64,000 bases of DNA from Gelidibacter japonicus. Lineage in GTDB: Bacteria > Bacteroidota > Bacteroidia > Flavobacteriales > Flavobacteriaceae. Location of the stretch: positions 97,340 to 161,339 of the forward strand of contig NZ_BJKB01000011.1 in the NCBI RefSeq assembly GCF_010725055.1, written 5' to 3'. The notes below the pieces were generated by a model. It searched no databases and was not told the origin of the DNA. It was given only the letters and a program-made list of their open reading frames with translations. Positions 46,555 through 53,720 of the stretch are shown here, in pieces (position 1 is the stretch's first letter; each line of letters starts with the position of its first letter). The translations under genes and the position numbers were made by a program.

Positions 46555-46977
46555 ATGAAACAACTTTTTTTATTTATTGGCCTTATTTTCATAACCGCTT
46601 GCAGCAAAAACAATAGCGATGAAAACTGCAAATTCCTGGTCAATGCTGCGGTAAATGTAACCGTCAACATGAATTTACCGCAATATAATCAACTGCAATT
46701 CACAAGCAACTCGGTGTATATCGCCAACCAAGGCAATAAAGGTGTTATCGTCATCAATGTTGGTAACGGTTACCGAGCCTGGGATGCTGCAGATCCCAAT
46801 CACGAACAACAACCTTGTTCCCTACTAACAATTACTGGCGCCAATGCCGTCTGTGGTTGCGTTGACGCCAATAAGTATAGCTTATTTACTGGAGGATCCG
46901 TCGGGACCCAACTACCCTGCGGACTCAAGGAATATCGCGTGACCGTATCAGGAAACTCCCTGCATATTACCAATTAG
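46555..46977 (+). CDS. Rieske-fold-like lipoprotein lacking the metal ligands
   Basis: A 140-residue protein with a lipoprotein signal peptide (MKQLFLFIGLIFITACSKNN). The rest follows the outline of a Rieske ferredoxin: FTSNSVYIANQGNKGVIVINVGNGYRAWDAADPNHEQQPCSLLTI...AVCGCVDANKYSLFTGGSVGTQLPCGLKEYRVTVSGNSLHI. The CxH and CxxH ligand pairs are not intact. A few Cys residues remain, but the pairing His residues are absent. It may be a structural relative with another role. I use the ATG at 46555; the open frame begins further upstream. It ends with a 4-bp convergent overlap with the TonB-dependent receptor gene. Confidence 0.75.
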   Translation: MKQLFLFIGLIFITACSKNNSDENCKFLVNAAVNVTVNMNLPQYNQLQFTSNSVYIANQGNKGVIVINVGNGYRAWDAADPNHEQQPCSLLTITGANAVCGCVDANKYSLFTGGSVGTQLPCGLKEYRVTVSGNSLHITN

Positions 46978-49439
46978 AATTTCAAGGTCGCTCCAATCAG
47001 AAAATTGGTGGTAGCTTGTGGAAAATAGCCAGCCCCTTCTATGGTTGTCACTTGGTTTGGATCCGTCCAGGTATCGTCATAGGTATAGTAAAACCCATTG
47101 GATATATATTTCTTATTGAAAATATTATTCGCCAGCCCAGAAAATAAAATCGATTTTAGAAAAGGTTTCTTCTGCGAGTCCTCCTTAGATTTTAAATGCC
47201 ATTCGTAGGTGACATTCACGTCATTCACAAAATAAGCATCCAGTTTAGAAGCTGGAGAATCAGTGTTGCCCATAAACTGTTCCCCTACGTATTTGCTCAA
47301 CAGGCTTATTTGAAAATGTTCTTTGGGTTGGAACACCAAGGCATTTGACGCCACAAGTTCTGGCGAAAACGAAATATTTGTCTTGCCTAAATCTACCAAC
47401 TCGCCATCGCGCTCAACAACTGTCTTTTTGGTTTTATTTGAACTCACAGTCACACTTGGCTGAAGACTCCATTGGGAAGTCAATCTCACTGCTGCCTCAA
47501 TTTCCAAACCTAAACGGTAGCTATCCCCACTATTGGTTCGGATTGGATTTCCGGTTGTATCAAGCTCTCCCGTTAACACCAATTGTTCATTATACAACAT
47601 ATAATAGGCATTGGCGTTGATACGGAATCCTGGATCATCATATCTCCATCCCAGCTCAAAATCATTAAGTTGCTCGGGCTTGACGTCGGTATTGTTTTGA
47701 AAATCCTTACGACTTGGCTCTCTGTTGGCCCTGGCATAAGAAAAGTACAAGGCATTTGCTGTATTGAACTGATAGGTCAATCCCGCTTTTGGATTAAAAA
47801 AATTAAAGCTTTCATCAATTTCCATGAGATCCGTATCGGAGTTTGTTCCCGTTGTTTTATAACCTACGTTCCGATATTGTAAATCGCCATAAAAACTCAA
47901 TTGTTCATCAAATTGATAGGTGGCTTTTGCAAACACATTGGCGTCGGTTTTCTTCCCGTTACCATCATAATAGCGATGTCCCTTAGGTGTGTTTCCGGCA
48001 TATTGTGCCCAAATCACTTCACCAAAATGATCGCCATCGTAAGTACTATACGAAGTTCCAAATGAAAGATTTAAATCCTCCTTTTTATAATTGGCGTTGG
48101 CATTGACTACATAGAAGTGGTTATCTAACCAACGACGGCGTACTAAATCACTCCGAGTGATACTTTCACCTCCCAATTCGATATCTTCCATGCCGTATTG
48201 TGCCAATTTTTGATTTTCCTTATACTGCTCAAAAAACCCTAAACCACGTGTGTAGTTCAACCCCAATGTGGTGGACCATTGGTTGTTGATGCGCTCATTC
48301 CAATGCAATTGGTAATGATCTTGCTTATAGTCGTCAATTTCGTTTTCATAAAACTGAATGTTTCCGTCAGCATCAGTGTACATTCCAGCCGTATTAAAGG
48401 TTCTATCGTTCTTTAATAGATCCAAGTCTTCCAACCCGTTCCAGGCCTGATAGGTGATTTCTTGGCCTCCAAAAACAACGGCCTTGATCAATCTATTGGT
48501 GTCAACGTAAGCACCTTGCAGGAAGTATGATTTTAAATCAGAAGACGCACGATCAATATAGCCATCCGACTTTATATTAGACAGACGTCCTGAAATTTCG
48601 AAGTGGTCATTCAAGCGTCCGGTACTAAACTTAAGGGTGTGTTTGTGGGTGTTATAACTCCCAAAACTATTGGCAATTTCGGCACTTGCTTCATTTGACA
48701 CCCCTTCAGTAAGCACGTTAATACTTGCGCCAAAGGCACCAGAGCCATTTGTGGAAGTTCCGACACCACGCTGCAATTGCATACTTTCGGTTGACGACGC
48801 AAAATCACTCAAATTCACCCAGAATGTCCCCATGGATTCCGCATCGTTATATGGAATACCATTTATGGTGATATTGGTAGATTGTGCATTAATACCTCGT
48901 ACCCTAATACCGGTATAACCAATACCTGCTCCAGCGTCGGTGGTGGTTACGACCGATGGTAAAAAGTTAAGAAGCATAGGAATATCTTGGCCTAAATTGC
49001 GTTTTTCCAGATCTTCCTTTGAAATGTTGGAGTGTGTTATTGGTGAGCTTGCTCCAACACGTACCGCATTGACCAATACCTCATCCAAAATTTCTACCGT
49101 TTCGTTAATGACGATGTTTAGCACCAAATCAGCGCTAAGATCAAAGGTCCTTTCGATAGGTTTAGCCGTAAGATAACGGATTTCCAAAGTGTGTTTTCCT
49201 TTAGGCAAATCCAAAGTATAGTAACCGTTAAGATCTGTTTGAGTCCAGGTTGTGCTGCGTTTCAGCTGAATACTGACCCCTGCCAGTGGCTCTGAATCTT
49301 GTTGGGTGACGCGACCAGACACGCGATAGTTTTGAGCAAAAGCGGTAAGACCCGAAAAGAGCAATAAATAAATTAAAATAAACTTAATAGATGGTTTGAA
49401 TCGGTTCTTTGCCGATACATTCGTGAATAAAGGTTTCAT
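46974..49439 (-). CDS. TonB-dependent receptor, likely for thiamine
   Basis: An 821-residue outer membrane receptor. After the signal region (IKFILIYLLLFSGLTAFAQ) comes a carboxypeptidase regulatory-like domain (residues about 38-115, VSGRVTQQDSEPLAGVSIQLKR), a plug domain (ISKEDLEKRNLGQDIPMLLNFLPSV...IRVRGINAQSTNITINGIPYND), and a ~600-residue barrel ending in FLIGATLKF. The plug resembles siderophore/cobalamin-type receptors more than SusC. A TPP riboswitch precedes it, so its cargo is inferred to be thiamine, a phosphate ester or a precursor. THI-element-controlled receptors of this kind have been predicted in Bacteroidota. Energy would come from a TonB-ExbBD system not found here. Confidence 0.93.
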   Translation of the reverse strand: MKPLFTNVSAKNRFKPSIKFILIYLLLFSGLTAFAQNYRVSGRVTQQDSEPLAGVSIQLKRSTTWTQTDLNGYYTLDLPKGKHTLEIRYLTAKPIERTFDLSADLVLNIVINETVEILDEVLVNAVRVGASSPITHSNISKEDLEKRNLGQDIPMLLNFLPSVVTTTDAGAGIGYTGIRVRGINAQSTNITINGIPYNDAESMGTFWVNLSDFASSTESMQLQRGVGTSTNGSGAFGASINVLTEGVSNEASAEIANSFGSYNTHKHTLKFSTGRLNDHFEISGRLSNIKSDGYIDRASSDLKSYFLQGAYVDTNRLIKAVVFGGQEITYQAWNGLEDLDLLKNDRTFNTAGMYTDADGNIQFYENEIDDYKQDHYQLHWNERINNQWSTTLGLNYTRGLGFFEQYKENQKLAQYGMEDIELGGESITRSDLVRRRWLDNHFYVVNANANYKKEDLNLSFGTSYSTYDGDHFGEVIWAQYAGNTPKGHRYYDGNGKKTDANVFAKATYQFDEQLSFYGDLQYRNVGYKTTGTNSDTDLMEIDESFNFFNPKAGLTYQFNTANALYFSYARANREPSRKDFQNNTDVKPEQLNDFELGWRYDDPGFRINANAYYMLYNEQLVLTGELDTTGNPIRTNSGDSYRLGLEIEAAVRLTSQWSLQPSVTVSSNKTKKTVVERDGELVDLGKTNISFSPELVASNALVFQPKEHFQISLLSKYVGEQFMGNTDSPASKLDAYFVNDVNVTYEWHLKSKEDSQKKPFLKSILFSGLANNIFNKKYISNGFYYTYDDTWTDPNQVTTIEGAGYFPQATTNFLIGATLKF

Positions 49440-49543
49440 TCGAATAAATAAATTTAGACGAATAAAAAGAGGTAATTATTCTTGGTTAAAAATTAAATGA
49501 TTTTATTAAGCTTTAAAGTTTAGCGGTATCTTTTTAAGATGTT

Positions 49544-49555
49544 GCCGGCAACCGT
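49544..49555 (-). promoter_or_regulatory. Candidate expression platform hairpins
   Basis: Between aptamer and start codon are a perfect 12-nt palindrome GTTGCCGGCAAC and, adjacent, ATCTT-AAA-AAGAT, enclosed by CGGT/ACCG. They may form the switching structure. No T-tract terminator is clear, so translational control is as likely as attenuation. Confidence 0.35.
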
Positions 49556-49590
49556 TAAACATGTCCTTTAGACACTTTTTAAAACTTAGA

Positions 49591-49745
49591 TCCCTAAACG
49601 GCATTATCCGTTCTAGGTTCAATGGGTATGATCTCAGCCGATTTGATTATTGATTTTTGATCTTTGATTTCTGATTTATGAATCCTTTTATTCAACAATC
49701 TTCAATCTCCAATCTTCGATCTTCAATCTATCAGGCACCCCTTTT
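49591..49745 (-). promoter_or_regulatory. TPP (THI-box) riboswitch with expanded P3 arm
   Basis: On the minus strand the conserved aptamer parts occur in order: GGGGTGCC (49741-49734), then after a P3 insertion CGGCTGAGATCATACCC (49640-49624), GAACCTAGAACGGATAATG and CCGTTTAGGGA ending at 49591. P2 pairs GGG with CCC. P3 pairs GCC(T)GAT with ATCGGC. P4 pairs CCTA with TAGG. P5 is ACGG/CCGT around ATAATG. It directly precedes the receptor gene (start 49439). TPP binding should repress expression. The P3 loop is unusually long, about 87 nt of heptamer repeats. Confidence 0.93.
49643..49729. repeat. Heptamer arrays within riboswitch P3
   Basis: On the plus strand the units ATTTGAT, TATTGAT, TTTTGAT, CTTTGAT, TTCTGAT, TTATGAA and, after a short break, CAATCTT, CAATCTC, CAATCTT, CGATCTT, CAATCTA follow with strict 7-bp phase. 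The two halves carry GAT and ATC words and can pair imperfectly with each other. Confidence 0.85.
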
Positions 49746-49757
49746 TTGAGAACGGTG

Positions 49758-49765
49758 CAAAGATA
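49758..49765 (-). promoter_or_regulatory. -7 box (TATCTTTG) driving the TPP riboswitch transcript
   Basis: An exact TAnnTTTG match lies on the minus strand, ending about 16 nt before the GGGGTGCC of the aptamer. The leader would start at about 49750 and be ~310 nt long. A TTG -33 element is not evident. Confidence 0.55.
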
Positions 49766-50184
49766 TGAAGGATTTCCGATTTTAGAAGAATGAATTACGA
49801 ATAAATTTATTTTAGTTAGAATTCAAAAAAAACACTCTACACTTCTCGCAGATTACACAGAAAACATTTGCCGAGAAAAATCAGTGAAATTCATAAGCCA
49901 TCTGCGCGATCAGCGCTCCAAAAAGATCAAATTTATAAATTATTCAAGCGAAAAATCATCTCGTAAATGGCAATTTGGAATTAGTGAGATTTCAAAATCT
50001 GTGATAATTTGTGTAATTCCTGTCTAAAAAAATAGGAAACGAAAATTCATGGAGTGGGCTAATACAGAGAGACGCGGAGGCGCAGAGATAATAATTAATA
50101 GTAATGGTTGAAAAAATGATGTCAGAGGTATTGCGATGGAGATTGCCGACTGAAGACTGAAGACTGAGAACTGCCAACTGAGCA
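49766..50184. other. Gap upstream of the riboswitch
   Basis: No gene was found. It contains phrase-like degenerate tracts (49835-49915 and 50060-50095) and a degenerate heptamer array of the GACTGAA/AACTGCC type at about 50145-50183. Confidence 0.5.
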
Positions 50185-50589
50185 CTACTCTAATTCCGGC
50201 GGTCTTCTACCCGCTTTTTTATCAGAAGTTTTACGCTTTGCCTTCAATCGTTTTCTAACTACCGATCGTGGTATCTTAGTAGGAATACGCTTTTTTGGAA
50301 TGATCAATCCTTCTTCGATAAGATCGAAAAAACGTTGCACCACGAGGGTTTTGTTTTTATGCTGACTTCTGCTCTCTTCACATTGGAGCAAAAGAATGTT
50401 CTCTTTGGTGAGTCGGTTTCTAAGGTTTTGTTTCAATAAAACTTTTTCATCATCGGTCAATCCGTTTGAAGCTTCCAAGTCAAAAATAAGTTCCACTTTT
50501 GAGGCTACCTTATTGACGTTCTGACCCCCGGCGCCTGAGCTTCTTACCGCTTTAAATTGCAATTCCGATTGTAGAATGTCTTTGTTCAT
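50185..50589 (-). CDS. arfB: Alternative ribosome-rescue factor ArfB
   Basis: A 134-residue peptidyl-tRNA hydrolase of the RF-1-like ArfB/YaeJ type, which frees stalled ribosomes on truncated mRNA. The catalytic GGQ motif appears as RSSGAGGQNVNKVASKVEL. The C-terminal tail is strongly basic (KKRIPTKIPRSVVRKRLKAKRKTSDKKAGRRP), as needed to enter the empty mRNA channel. The ATG at 50589 (MNKDILQSELQ) is the likely start. The gap upstream to DUF4301 contains a heptamer array. Confidence 0.95.
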   Translation of the reverse strand: MNKDILQSELQFKAVRSSGAGGQNVNKVASKVELIFDLEASNGLTDDEKVLLKQNLRNRLTKENILLLQCEESRSQHKNKTLVVQRFFDLIEEGLIIPKKRIPTKIPRSVVRKRLKAKRKTSDKKAGRRPPELE

Positions 50590-50670
50590 GGTATTATTTT
50601 TAAAAAAACTGCCCGCCCCGTCAAAATACACCTCCTTCTACCTAATTACCCTCAAGTGACCAATACGGGA

Positions 50671-50705
50671 CAGGCTGCAGGCTGTTAACTGGAGGCTGCT
50701 GACCC
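50671..50705. repeat. Degenerate heptamer array (CAGGCTG type)
   Basis: CAGGCTG, CAGGCTG, TTAACTG, GAGGCTG and CTGACCC follow in 7-bp phase in the gap between the DUF4301 gene and arfB. Confidence 0.7.
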
Positions 50706-50766
50706 GCCCGAATGCATTTTTTTCTAACCAAACACACACAGGCCAATTGTACGGGCAGGCTGCTCA

Positions 50767-52320
50767 CTACTCAATTTGGTGTGTTGGTTTCAACAAATCG
50801 GTGACGGTTTTTACTGGATTAAAGGTAATCAATGGCACTTCAACAAAAACAGTATTCCAATCGGCCATGCTCCCGTTCCAAAGACCAGGCAATTCTAAAG
50901 CCATTAAATCTTTTCCAGCATGTGTTTTCATGGTGATAAATGCGGTTTTAGGGTCAACAAATTGTTGCAAGTCAAAAACTTCACCTTTAAAATTTTTAAT
51001 TCCACAGACTAAGTCGACAGGGTTAAAATGCGTCGCATTTTTGACGATTTCGTTTTGCTTTTTGTTGTCCAAATCGATCTGTGCGGACTCCACAATTTGA
51101 AGTGAGATTTGCCCTTTTTCGTCCTTTACCCAAAATGGTCCACCACCAGGTTCGCCTTCGTTTTTAACCATCCCACAGATACGGATAGGTCTGTTCAATT
51201 TATCAAATAAATACTCGATTTGATATTTTGTGGAATATTTCTCGAACTCAGAGCTGATGACCACATGCAATGTATTCACTAAAAACTGCGAAATAGTGAG
51301 AATATCCTCTTCTGTAACTTCTCCACTTTCAAGAAGCTTTAGGTGGTCAAATACTTCCTGTTGAATTTCAAGCAGCATGCCCGCTAACATTTTTTTATAT
51401 TCGGCAACCTCATCCTCATATTTATAGACCACGACATTATCAATGTTCTTTATAAAAATAACATCTGAGTCCAATAGATTCAAATTCTCCAAAAGTGCTC
51501 CGTGACCTGACGGTCTGAAAGTCAATTGTCCATTATCAGCTCGGAATAGCTCATTTTCGGGTGTAACCGCAATGGTATCGGTTGAGGCCTTTTGATATGA
51601 AAAAGTAATATGGAATTTGGTATTTGTTTTTTGCTCTACAATCTCACGAATACGTACAAATTCGTCATCAAACATTTTTTTATAGACTTCTGAAATTGTA
51701 AAGTGCAGGAAGGCTATATTATTTGTGGATGCATACAAGGCGGCTTCAAATAAATGCTCTTCAAAAGCCGTTGCCAAATGATCTTTATACTCATGGAATG
51801 GCAGCAGTCCTTTTGGGTAGAAACCATAATTCATCTTATCCTCATCCATCATTGTTTTGACGAATAGCAATTTTTGTCTATCGTTAGAAAATGAGGCGTA
51901 TTCTGGATAAAAAACTTCTATCTGTTCAAGGACCGTATTGTAAAAAGGCAACTTTTCGATGCCAACAAAAAACAATGACAAATCAGCGTCCTTATATTTA
52001 TTGATGAAAGAATTTATAGTTTCATCCTCTGGAACGTATTCGTCAATAAACCTAAATAAAGTCTTGAACATGCGAGTAGCCGCGCCAGATGCTGGAACAA
52101 ATTTGGCAATGGAAACATCATTCCTTTTAGAATCAAAAAAATTGATATAGCGCGCTTTTGTAACTTCGGAACATTTTACAATACCCTTGTTTATTGTTGC
52201 CGCCGAACTAAGATTCACAAATGGCATGCCCGTTTCAAAAAGTTCCAGTTGCGATTGGACCTGAGCCAGGGTCATGCCTTTACTTTCAATTTGCTGTATA
52301 TCTTTTTCTGTAAATTTCAC
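50767..52320 (-). CDS. DUF4301 protein, UDP-sugar pyrophosphorylase-like
   Basis: A 517-residue protein of the DUF4301 family. Residues about 74-86 read KFVPASGAATRMF, similar to the G-x-G-T-R-M nucleotide-binding loop of NTP-transferases. Residues about 268-300 read FRPSGHGALLENLNLLDSDVIFIKNIDNVV. This closely follows the UDPGP-family pattern P-G-H-G...L-x-x-S/N-x-L-x(n)-V-x-N-I-D-N. It may therefore transfer a nucleotide to a phosphorylated substrate. It starts with GTG, overlapping the stop of the NadR-like kinase gene by 4 bp, so kinase and DUF4301 are translationally coupled, as expected for consecutive steps. The substrate is unknown; the locus suggests thiamine or another vitamin-like compound. 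Confidence 0.85.
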   Translation of the reverse strand: MKFTEKDIQQIESKGMTLAQVQSQLELFETGMPFVNLSSAATINKGIVKCSEVTKARYINFFDSKRNDVSIAKFVPASGAATRMFKTLFRFIDEYVPEDETINSFINKYKDADLSLFFVGIEKLPFYNTVLEQIEVFYPEYASFSNDRQKLLFVKTMMDEDKMNYGFYPKGLLPFHEYKDHLATAFEEHLFEAALYASTNNIAFLHFTISEVYKKMFDDEFVRIREIVEQKTNTKFHITFSYQKASTDTIAVTPENELFRADNGQLTFRPSGHGALLENLNLLDSDVIFIKNIDNVVVYKYEDEVAEYKKMLAGMLLEIQQEVFDHLKLLESGEVTEEDILTISQFLVNTLHVVISSEFEKYSTKYQIEYLFDKLNRPIRICGMVKNEGEPGGGPFWVKDEKGQISLQIVESAQIDLDNKKQNEIVKNATHFNPVDLVCGIKNFKGEVFDLQQFVDPKTAFITMKTHAGKDLMALELPGLWNGSMADWNTVFVEVPLITFNPVKTVTDLLKPTHQIE

Positions 52321-52883
52321 ACTTTCTTTTTTATTAGTTCATCAATATGGGTTACGGCCAACTCAAATCGCTCTTCTATAGGGCCTTTCAACAGAATATA
52401 TGGTTTGTTATATTCTTTTAACTCATTTTCAAAGGCTTCAAACATGGCTTCGCGGTCATGAGGCCGGTCTCTTAAATCGTCAGCTTCCCACGGAATATCA
52501 ATATAAGTCAAAAAATAGAGATCGTAGGTGTTTTGTATGGCATATTTCTCCAGAACCGGATCACATACCCCATCATAATAGGATTCTGAATAGACTTTGG
52601 TTTCCAATAAATCGGTGTCGCAAATAAGTACGGTATCTGCTTTTGGAGTCAGCTCATTTTCGAGTCGCATTTGGCCTTCAGCAATTGGCAATACATCATT
52701 CACGGTTAAAGTTTTTCCCAAACGTAGCTTCTCTTCAGCATAAATACGGGAATACTCAGGCACAAAAACTGTATTGTAATATTCGGCCAATTGCATGGCT
52801 AAAGTACTTTTTCCGGTTGACTCGGGGCCAAACAAGACTACTTTTATGCAATCTGAGGGGTCTTGTTTAAGCTTTTCTTCCAT
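52317..52883 (-). CDS. NadR-like P-loop kinase (vitamin kinase candidate)
   Basis: A 188-residue AAA_28/NadR-type kinase. Walker A is VVLFGPESTGKSTLAMQLAEYY; EYSRIYAEEKL and the later LICDTDLLETKVYSES match the ribosylnicotinamide kinase domain of NadR. It lacks the NMN adenylyltransferase domain. In NadR systems this domain traps the vitamin taken up by PnuC by phosphorylating it. Here the neighbours are a PnuC-type transporter and a thiamine-binding protein, so the substrate could be thiamine, HMP or nicotinamide riboside. The gene overlaps the transporter gene by 40 bp and DUF4301 by 4 bp. Confidence 0.85.
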   Translation of the reverse strand: MEEKLKQDPSDCIKVVLFGPESTGKSTLAMQLAEYYNTVFVPEYSRIYAEEKLRLGKTLTVNDVLPIAEGQMRLENELTPKADTVLICDTDLLETKVYSESYYDGVCDPVLEKYAIQNTYDLYFLTYIDIPWEADDLRDRPHDREAMFEAFENELKEYNKPYILLKGPIEERFELAVTHIDELIKKKV

Positions 52884-53476
52884 GCTATATATCCATAAAT
52901 CGCTATAAAGGTAAATCCAAAATACTGTATGCTTGTAAAGGTAAAACCTTTATAGAAATAAAGTGGAATAGAAATAAGATCTCCAACAATCCAATAAATC
53001 CAATTCTCCACTTTTCGACGTGCCATGAGCCACATGCCCACAAAAAATATGGCTGTCGTTAAGGTATCGACATAAGCCACCCAACTGGTCCATTTGTCAA
53101 AACTTTTATAAACAATGAAGACAAAGCCCAAGGTTGCTATAAAAATGACGGCACTCATTTTATGCTCCCAAGAGGTCGTTTTTGAAATTGGAGTCACATG
53201 AGTGCTGTCCACCTTTCTGGTCCAAATATACCATCCATAGATGCTCATAGCGAAATAATACCCATTGATCATCATATCCCCCAGAAGCTCCCATTTTAAG
53301 AGTAGGTACACAAAAATCCCCGTACTGATCATTCCGGTAGGAAAGACCCAAATATTATTTTGTTTAGAGCTCCAAACTGAAAGAAATCCGAAGATAACAG
53401 CTACTATTTCTAAAACAATATCCATGGTATCATAACCTGAATATTGTCCAAACAGAAAATCAAAAATGTGGTTCAT
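52844..53476 (-). CDS. PnuC/PnuT-family vitamin transporter
   Basis: A 210-residue inner membrane protein with about seven helices. It has the family signature regions VWSSKQNNIWVFPTGMISTGIFVYLL, INGYYFAMSIYGWYIWTRK, and RRKVENWIYWIVGDLISIPLYFYKG. PnuC members facilitate uptake of nicotinamide riboside; PnuT members import thiamine and are often regulated by TPP. The neighbouring thiamine-binding gene and the nearby TPP riboswitch favour thiamine here. The ATG at 53476 is chosen; a TTG start lies upstream. It overlaps the genes on both sides. Confidence 0.9.
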   Translation of the reverse strand: MNHIFDFLFGQYSGYDTMDIVLEIVAVIFGFLSVWSSKQNNIWVFPTGMISTGIFVYLLLKWELLGDMMINGYYFAMSIYGWYIWTRKVDSTHVTPISKTTSWEHKMSAVIFIATLGFVFIVYKSFDKWTSWVAYVDTLTTAIFFVGMWLMARRKVENWIYWIVGDLISIPLYFYKGFTFTSIQYFGFTFIAIYGYIAWKKSLNKTPQIA

Positions 53477-53720
53477 AGTCCTGTCTATCAGATTTGACAA
53501 TTTTCATATAGAGCAAACCGCGTTCTATCAAAGTAAATGCTTCTTTTATTTCCGTGGTCAAAAGCTGCATGACCTCATCATAATCGCCATAAACCTGTGT
53601 ACTCAAAGGGTTTTCCAAAACCGTAAGTCCTGAAGCTCTTAATTTTTTTATAAAATGAATGATACTTGGTTCATAGTCATCATGCAAAGGGGTAAAGCTT
53701 AATTCTACTGATATTTTCAT
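53460..53720 (-). CDS. Thiamine-binding protein (MTH1187/YkoF-like)
   Basis: An 86-residue protein of the Thiamine_BP (formerly DUF77) family. It shows the fold pattern ISVELSFTPLHDDYEPSIIHFIKKLRASGLTVLENPLSTQVYGDYDEVMQLLTTEIKEAF. Members bind thiamine or HMP, for example YkoF in a B. subtilis HMP uptake system. There is no signal peptide, so it is cytoplasmic. It is the first gene of the overlapping operon (17-bp overlap with the transporter). An AGATTCC palindrome ends 5 bp upstream of its ATG. Confidence 0.88.
   Translation of the reverse strand: MKISVELSFTPLHDDYEPSIIHFIKKLRASGLTVLENPLSTQVYGDYDEVMQLLTTEIKEAFTLIERGLLYMKIVKSDRQDYEPHF

Follow-up and report, generated by a model that had tools for sequence, protein, structure and literature searches.

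We analysed a window of 64,000 nucleotides (nt) from Gelidibacter japonicus (contig NZ_BJKB01000011.1, positions 97,340 to 161,339), which contains a candidate locus for the scavenging of thiamine (vitamin B1) built around a stand-alone kinase related to NadR. The genes for a Thiamine_BP family protein (tbp), a PnuC-family transporter (pnuT), the kinase, a DUF4301 protein, ArfB and a TonB-dependent receptor all lie on the minus strand, and the positions, strand and overlaps given for them in an initial annotation proved correct. The overlaps amount to 17 nt between tbp and pnuT, 40 nt between pnuT and the kinase gene, and 4 nt between the kinase gene and DUF4301. The features of the locus, with protein length in amino acids (aa) and thiamine pyrophosphate abbreviated as TPP, are:

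53460..53720, minus strand: Thiamine_BP family protein, 86 aa; weak match to PF01910 (27.9 bits, cut-off 24.9)
52844..53476, minus strand: PnuT, a PnuC-family transporter of proposed thiamine type; NMN_transporter PF04973 (180.2 bits) and PnuC tree
52317..52883, minus strand: stand-alone NadR-RNK-like P-loop kinase, proposed thiamine kinase; AAA_28 PF13521 (139 bits)
50767..52320, minus strand: DUF4301 protein with predicted UDPGP-superfamily fold; PF14134 (717 bits)
50185..50589, minus strand: ArfB ribosome-rescue hydrolase, a bystander gene; NF006718 (126.5 bits, frame 50185-50631) and RF-1 domain in Pfam
49574..49752, minus strand: TPP riboswitch RF00059, P3 with a hairpin insert of ~90 nt; 29.9 bits, below gathering score
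46974..49439, minus strand: TonB-dependent receptor, OMthi-like; PF00593, PF07715 and PF13715

The order tbp-pnuT-kinase-DUF4301 recurred in close relatives, where arfB, riboswitch and receptor often came next. Below, individual genomes, loci and families carry G, L and f numbers, respectively.

The kinase (188 aa) matched only positions 164-318 of the 325 positions of the NCBIfam model TIGR01526 (NadR), with 106.7 bits against a cut-off of 341.15. This match covers the kinase part only, and no nicotinamide mononucleotide adenylyltransferase (NMNAT) domain was found in the protein. The AlphaFold2 model of the kinase (pLDDT 93.1) had NadR 8x7f as its best match in the Protein Data Bank (PDB; E 1.1e-9, TMq 0.84), with thymidylate kinases next, and profile matches in the PDB were the NadR entries 9x6f, 8x7f, 1lw7 and 6gye. 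The homologous kinase domain and the adjacent PnuC-family gene are thus shared with NadR, whereas the missing NMNAT domain and the genomic context set the window kinase apart, as does its distinctness from the true NadR with which such kinases coexist. Four genomes (G043, G158, G173 and G083) encoded a full-length NadR-like protein of 320-352 aa as a separate gene besides the short kinase; these proteins matched both TIGR01526 domains at 163-220 bits, below the cut-off. In three of the four (G043, G158 and G173), the true NadR gene adjoined a PnuC gene of its own, and G158 possessed both PnuC pairs. A separate true NadR was also recognized in G009, judged by frame length and position. The consulted sections of a study of Lactococcus lactis NadR (PMC7221760) do not describe how the kinase site contacts nicotinamide riboside.

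The initial annotation proposed a comparison of gene order and riboswitch occurrence, and in this comparison the kinase was found repeatedly with PnuC and with a TPP riboswitch. At 75 of 95 kinase places, a PnuC gene on the same strand lay no more than 1.5 kb upstream; the distance was at most 100 nt at 70 of the 95 (25 families), and the two genes overlapped at 33 of these. Longer gaps measured 182 nt at one locus and 462-526 nt at four, three of them verified NadR; the fourth (G122), with a frame of 348 aa and a gap of 462 nt, looks like NadR as well. Among the matches listed, a TPP riboswitch was located within 10 kb of at least 23 of the 95 kinase places (13 families), each time downstream and on the same strand. 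Approximately half a case would be expected by chance, as estimated from one riboswitch per ~3.5-Mb genome. Strict riboswitch filters miss elements like that of the window, and the riboswitch and weak-kinase counts are lower bounds.

Among 89 kinase rows, 40 were thiamine-linked (riboswitch pattern or receptor downstream), four were true NadR, and 45 had no such link in the flank, the latter including non-Bacteroidota rows and loci ending at a contig edge. The kinase was followed by a riboswitch and/or receptor in Winogradskyella, Arenibacter (riboswitch ~6 kb past the kinase, receptor truncated by the end of the sequence), Dokdonia, Flavobacterium, Pontibacter, Botryobacter (receptor only), Hymenobacter and a Saprospiraceae metagenome-assembled genome. 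Three loci (L017, L019 and L020) showed kinase, riboswitch and receptor in this order with no DUF4301. In family f43, the genomes G059, G097 and G183 had the order riboswitch-receptor-PnuC-TPK, where TPK is thiamine pyrophosphokinase, matching Bacteroides. Riboswitch labels of relatives' loci (the named neighbourhoods, the TPK-locus comparison and the 89-row set) derive from a regular expression and not from a covariance model.

At least 12 kinase loci had a weak ThiE/TenI (TMP-TENI) relative on the upstream side of PnuC; three of the four scanned passed PF02581 and one fell below the cut-off. Distances for these genes come from 26 places taken by hand, a subset of all. In several families, a diverged TMP-TENI gene stood directly upstream of the PnuC-kinase pair (L106:5119-5754, L131:7355-7987 and L097:4807-5517).

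On the PnuC tree, the window PnuT belonged to a group of 40 rows (support 83) that also contained the four TPK-linked rows and three riboswitch-linked ones; NadR-linked PnuC formed a separate clade (support 98) of four rows plus L043. On the kinase tree, linked and unlinked short kinases intermixed, and the L043 kinase grouped with NadR. Both trees are approximate, the kinase tree being rooted on NadR rows and the PnuC tree made by a quick method, with long branches.

We compared gene presence across 168 Bacteroidia genomes (G000, G021 and G030-G195), with thresholds of our own for ThiE (at least 90 bits) and the kinase (at least 75 bits). The set was drawn from the class of the window, which we took to be Bacteroidia on the basis of named relatives. 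The kinase was detected in 91 genomes, TPK in 32, the PnuC family in 117 (over the cut-off), ThiL in 167 (165 over the model's cut-off), ThiE in 59 and DUF4301 in 26. As the kinase of G122 looks like a full NadR, the number of genomes with a stand-alone kinase is probably 90; this genome has ThiE and is outside the ThiE-less set described below. Kinase and TPK occurred together in only two genomes (G090 and G123), and neither occurred in 47 (p-value 4.8e-10), 42 of which had ThiE. The 109 genomes lacking ThiE divided into 79 with the kinase only, 25 with TPK only, none with both and five with neither (G052, G061, G120, G125 and G151; Fisher p-value 5e-20). Collapsed by family, the counts were 28, 11, zero and three, respectively (p-value 8.5e-8). 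Since weak TMP-TENI relatives fall below the 90-bit ThiE threshold, we recounted the genomes with no ThiE-family match at all, which gave 54, 24, zero and four of 82. Four families (f14, f24, f47 and f54) switched internally, in that their sampled genomes lacked the kinase where ThiE was present and possessed it where ThiE was absent; the single ThiE-less genome of f61 had neither kinase nor TPK. At least one of ThiE, TPK and the kinase was present in 163 of the 168 genomes, as expected if the kinase supplies thiamine monophosphate (ThMP). All 91 kinase genomes possessed a PnuC-family gene, and two of the 117 PnuC genomes lacked both kinase and TPK.

The G. japonicus genome itself has the kinase, one ThiL (314.7 bits) and ThiE (145.6 bits, cut-off 145.1); searches of this genome for TPK (PF04263) and ThiC yielded nothing. 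It thus has no ThiC route to the pyrimidine and no TPK, and keeps ThiE and ThiL.

For each step below, we infer substrate, product and direction from context and phylogenetic profile. We consider it probable that the locus scavenges thiamine, with the kinase making ThMP, ThiL completing TPP, and the kinase thereby replacing TPK non-orthologously. The receptor under control of the TPP riboswitch would bring thiamine across the outer membrane, and PnuT would equilibrate it across the inner membrane by facilitated diffusion, the mode reportedly named in the title of a PnuT transport paper. The stand-alone NadR-like kinase would then use ATP to convert thiamine to ThMP and so trap the vitamin, a suggestion of the initial annotation that gains support as a likely step from the complementarity with TPK, the linkage and the coexistence with true NadR. 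Finally, ThiL, encoded elsewhere, would phosphorylate ThMP to TPP. DUF4301, whose gene overlaps that of the kinase in the family of G. japonicus, would probably be dispensable for the route.

The kinase would play the part that ThiK takes alongside ThiL in Escherichia coli. ThiK (YcfN) is the thiamine kinase of E. coli (EC 2.7.1.89, thiamine to ThMP), an aminoglycoside-phosphotransferase-like protein that works with ThiL; the proposed reaction is the same, whereas by this description the fold differs from that of the window kinase. The Tnr3 enzyme of the Bacteroides salvage locus is one that we take to be a TPK. That OMthi-PnuT-Tnr3 system (BT2390 and BT2396-BT2397) comprises, in the consulted sections of its description, a TPP riboswitch, a TonB receptor, a PnuC-family transporter and an adjacent activating enzyme, Tnr3 being termed a thiamine pyrophosphorylase (PMC5613172). 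The window likewise has a TPP riboswitch, a TonB receptor, a PnuC-family transporter and an enzyme beside the transporter. The likeness of the receptors was measured against those of the f43 TPK loci, to which the window receptor is 41-42% identical; the transporter would be of the thiamine type by its tree placement. Unlike the Bacteroides system, the window has a NadR-RNK-like P-loop kinase in the place of Tnr3/TPK, its riboswitch and receptor lie downstream, and there are extra Thiamine_BP and DUF4301 genes.

No earlier proposal of a NadR-like thiamine kinase was found in the open-licence literature, and the consulted part of a vitamin survey treats ThiK, ThiM and ThiN as the signature enzymes of B1 salvage and mentions NadR solely in connection with NAD (PMC6593275). 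The window kinase would be a specific candidate for the missing step between imported thiamine and the cofactor in Bacteroidota lacking TPK and ThiE. Together, the data suggest that many thiamine-importing Bacteroidota without the usual activating enzyme carry in its stead a kinase that is related to a vitamin B3 enzyme and would activate B1, and 79 of the 168 sampled Bacteroidia genomes would rely on it. If true, this would change annotation (from NadR and NAD to thiamine), predictions of B1 auxotrophy and models of vitamin exchange, and it would mean that a kinase of the B3 pathway was recruited into the B1 pathway together with transporters of a single family (PnuC/PnuT).

Several observations weigh against this interpretation. 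The nearest solved structures of the kinase are NadR, and the NadR rows do not form one clade on the kinase tree. Neither does thiamine-linked PnuC on its tree, with 18 of 34 rows in the 40-row group and eight in each of two others. Among the matches listed, 72 of the 95 kinase loci had no riboswitch within 10 kb, and the window riboswitch lies downstream of the kinase gene and therefore controls the receptor and not the kinase. Families f1, f32, f44 and f51 include kinase genomes with ThiE (12 of 91 overall), and the two genomes with both kinase and TPK (loci L150 and L151) depart from the alternation. The kinase-only class is defined by searches for ThiE and TPK; ThiK, ThiN and YjbQ, an alternative ThMP synthase, lay outside their scope. 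In G. japonicus, the presence of ThiE means that the kinase is not the only conceivable source of ThMP.

The first alternative is that the kinase phosphorylates nicotinamide riboside, that the PnuC-family gene imports this compound and that the thiamine receptor lies nearby by coincidence. This would agree with NadR being the closest match among both structures and family models and with NCBIfam naming the window transporter PnuC, but we regard it as improbable, given that the kinase is complementary to TPK across genomes, is repeatedly linked to riboswitch, receptor and TMP-TENI genes, lacks the NMNAT domain, and coexists with true NadR. The short distance to PnuC in the 70 loci also differs from the 462-526 nt of the four loci that are mostly verified NadR. 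Where the initial annotation had allowed that the cluster might track NAD metabolism instead, the outcome was in favour of thiamine, true NadR being separate from the short kinase in genomes that have both.

Somewhat less probable still is a kinase acting on a thiamine precursor, either the thiazole alcohol HET or hydroxymethylpyrimidine (HMP), and feeding a ThiE-like enzyme. The TMP-TENI relatives adjoining PnuC and the presence of ThiE without ThiC in G. japonicus would fit such an activity, whereas in the 54 kinase-only genomes with no ThiE-family match the phosphorylated precursor would be without that partner (YjbQ was not searched for), and the kinase alternates with TPK, an enzyme that acts on thiamine. 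A one-step pyrophosphokinase converting thiamine directly to TPP would explain why the kinase occupies TPK's place in locus and profile, yet it is just as unlikely, as the predicted fold is that of the NadR kinase domain and thymidylate kinases, which transfer one phosphate, and ThiL is kept in 167 of the 168 genomes, so that the second step is available.

The TPP riboswitch ahead of the TonB receptor, part of the locus as first annotated, was borne out with a score below the cut-off. A whole-window Rfam scan returned no riboswitch at gathering score; a focused scan found RF00059 on the minus strand at the position listed above (cut-off 54.3 bits; E 0.0011 against all families). We take the element to be a real TPP riboswitch because GGCTGAGATCATACCCATTGAACCTAGAAC is identical in the window and in L028, L030 and L035, relatives with a compact P3, and because an element precedes the same receptor in all nine genus members examined (the window and eight others). 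The eight receptors were 69-93% identical to that of the window, with four of the eight comparisons spanning a partial receptor only. The insert of ~90 nt folds as a lengthened P3 arm (z -1.84; 9 of 200 shuffles fold equally well), and the arm measures 83-97 nt in five of the nine genus members and 9 nt in four. Genus relatives with the compact P3 scored 34.6-39.1 bits, likewise below the cut-off; the insert lowers the score of the window element but is therefore not the sole reason for it. Within the arm, a fast-changing imperfect inverted repeat (window 49640-49735) was present in five of the nine genus members and absent from four.

The proposed full import route of receptor, transporter and binding protein held for the receptor and for a transporter of proposed thiamine type. 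The 86-aa Thiamine_BP protein is probably cytosolic and outside the import route, because no signal sequence was seen in it by eye. Homologues adjoined the kinase in other families too (L019, L020, L023, L024, L055, L100, L103, L121 and L132).

The UDPGP-like nucleotidyltransferase character first ascribed to DUF4301 was confirmed at the level of the predicted fold. The AlphaFold2 model (pLDDT 92.0) had 6tn3 as its best Foldseek match (E 1.6e-10), and all 50 PDB rows shown were UDPGP-type pyrophosphorylases (UDP-N-acetylglucosamine or UDP-glucose), though at only 10-16% identity and TMq of at most 0.51. A profile search against PDB sequences gave only a match of E 0.31 to the UDP-glucose pyrophosphorylase 7ppr, and Pfam reported DUF4301 alone. 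The Arg of an ASGAATRMF-type motif and the Lys of PKGLLPFH are invariant, in line with the UDPGP superfamily. By its model, DUF4301 is an enzyme resembling sugar nucleotidyltransferases.

The idea that the kinase and DUF4301 jointly define an activation route, which the initial annotation raised as a possibility, is probably wrong. DUF4301 was remote from any kinase in 22 of the 26 genomes containing it and near a kinase only in family f1 (four of 26), and is therefore probably not a required step; kinase carriers without it include G012 (at the locus) and G153 (genome-wide). Among the matches listed, neither a kinase nor PnuC, TPK or a riboswitch lay within 10 kb of any of the 22 remote loci. 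Across the 168 genomes, the presence of DUF4301 was not associated with that of the kinase or TPK (Fisher p-values 0.13 and 0.59), and no neighbour gene was common across families in the 20 DUF4301 loci inspected. We rejected DUF4301 as a required step on its remoteness, the lack of association and the lack of a shared neighbour, and it is unlikely to be needed for thiamine activation throughout the class.

Two observations weigh against discarding DUF4301 as a pathway step. Kinase and DUF4301 are fused in frame, with no stop between them, at L010, L015, L037, L038, L150 and L151, in two Flavobacterium species and in three further genera, of which one falls with Flavobacterium on the kinase tree. 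In G018 (f2; L186), ~80 nt separate the end of DUF4301 from a riboswitch, behind which lies a receptor with 40% identity to that of the window; the kinase found in this genome is on another contig. A tie of DUF4301 to thiamine in the fusion and G018 families is possible. There is a slim chance that, in the family of G. japonicus, the kinase with DUF4301 (fused to ~700 aa in Flavobacterium and relatives) forms a two-step enzyme taking thiamine to ThMP and on to a nucleotide-thiamine compound for storage or signalling, which would be a new branch of B1 metabolism; adenosine thiamine diphosphate is an example of such a compound. This becomes somewhat likelier because DUF4301 of G018 directly precedes riboswitch and receptor with no kinase beside it. 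G090 and G123 were the sole genomes among the 168 with both the fused kinase-DUF4301 and TPK.

Between kinase and riboswitch, Pontibacter and Hymenobacter have an aldose-epimerase-like gene (L040:8494-9405 and L046:8605-9955; one protein scanned), accompanied in Hymenobacter by a GNAT acetyltransferase gene (one protein scanned). The G. japonicus genome contains another TPP-class riboswitch-like element (L115:11168-11275, minus strand; G000:C2:177167-177274), which scored 39.6 bits, below the cut-off. At L115, L204 and L195, such an element and a terminator-like hairpin precede genes for nicotinate phosphoribosyltransferase and nicotinamidase. Further cases of this NAD-gene-linked element were seen in G008 (51.2 bits) and G003 (43.7 bits), the latter with another open reading frame (ORF) intervening. 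The GAACCTGAT part of these elements is changed to forms like GAACTTCAA or TAACTTCAA, which may reflect decay or a change of ligand. A similarly altered TPP-like element with a terminator-like hairpin was found before an equivalent 197-aa ORF at L188 and L205 (G005, plus strand, and G001, minus strand).

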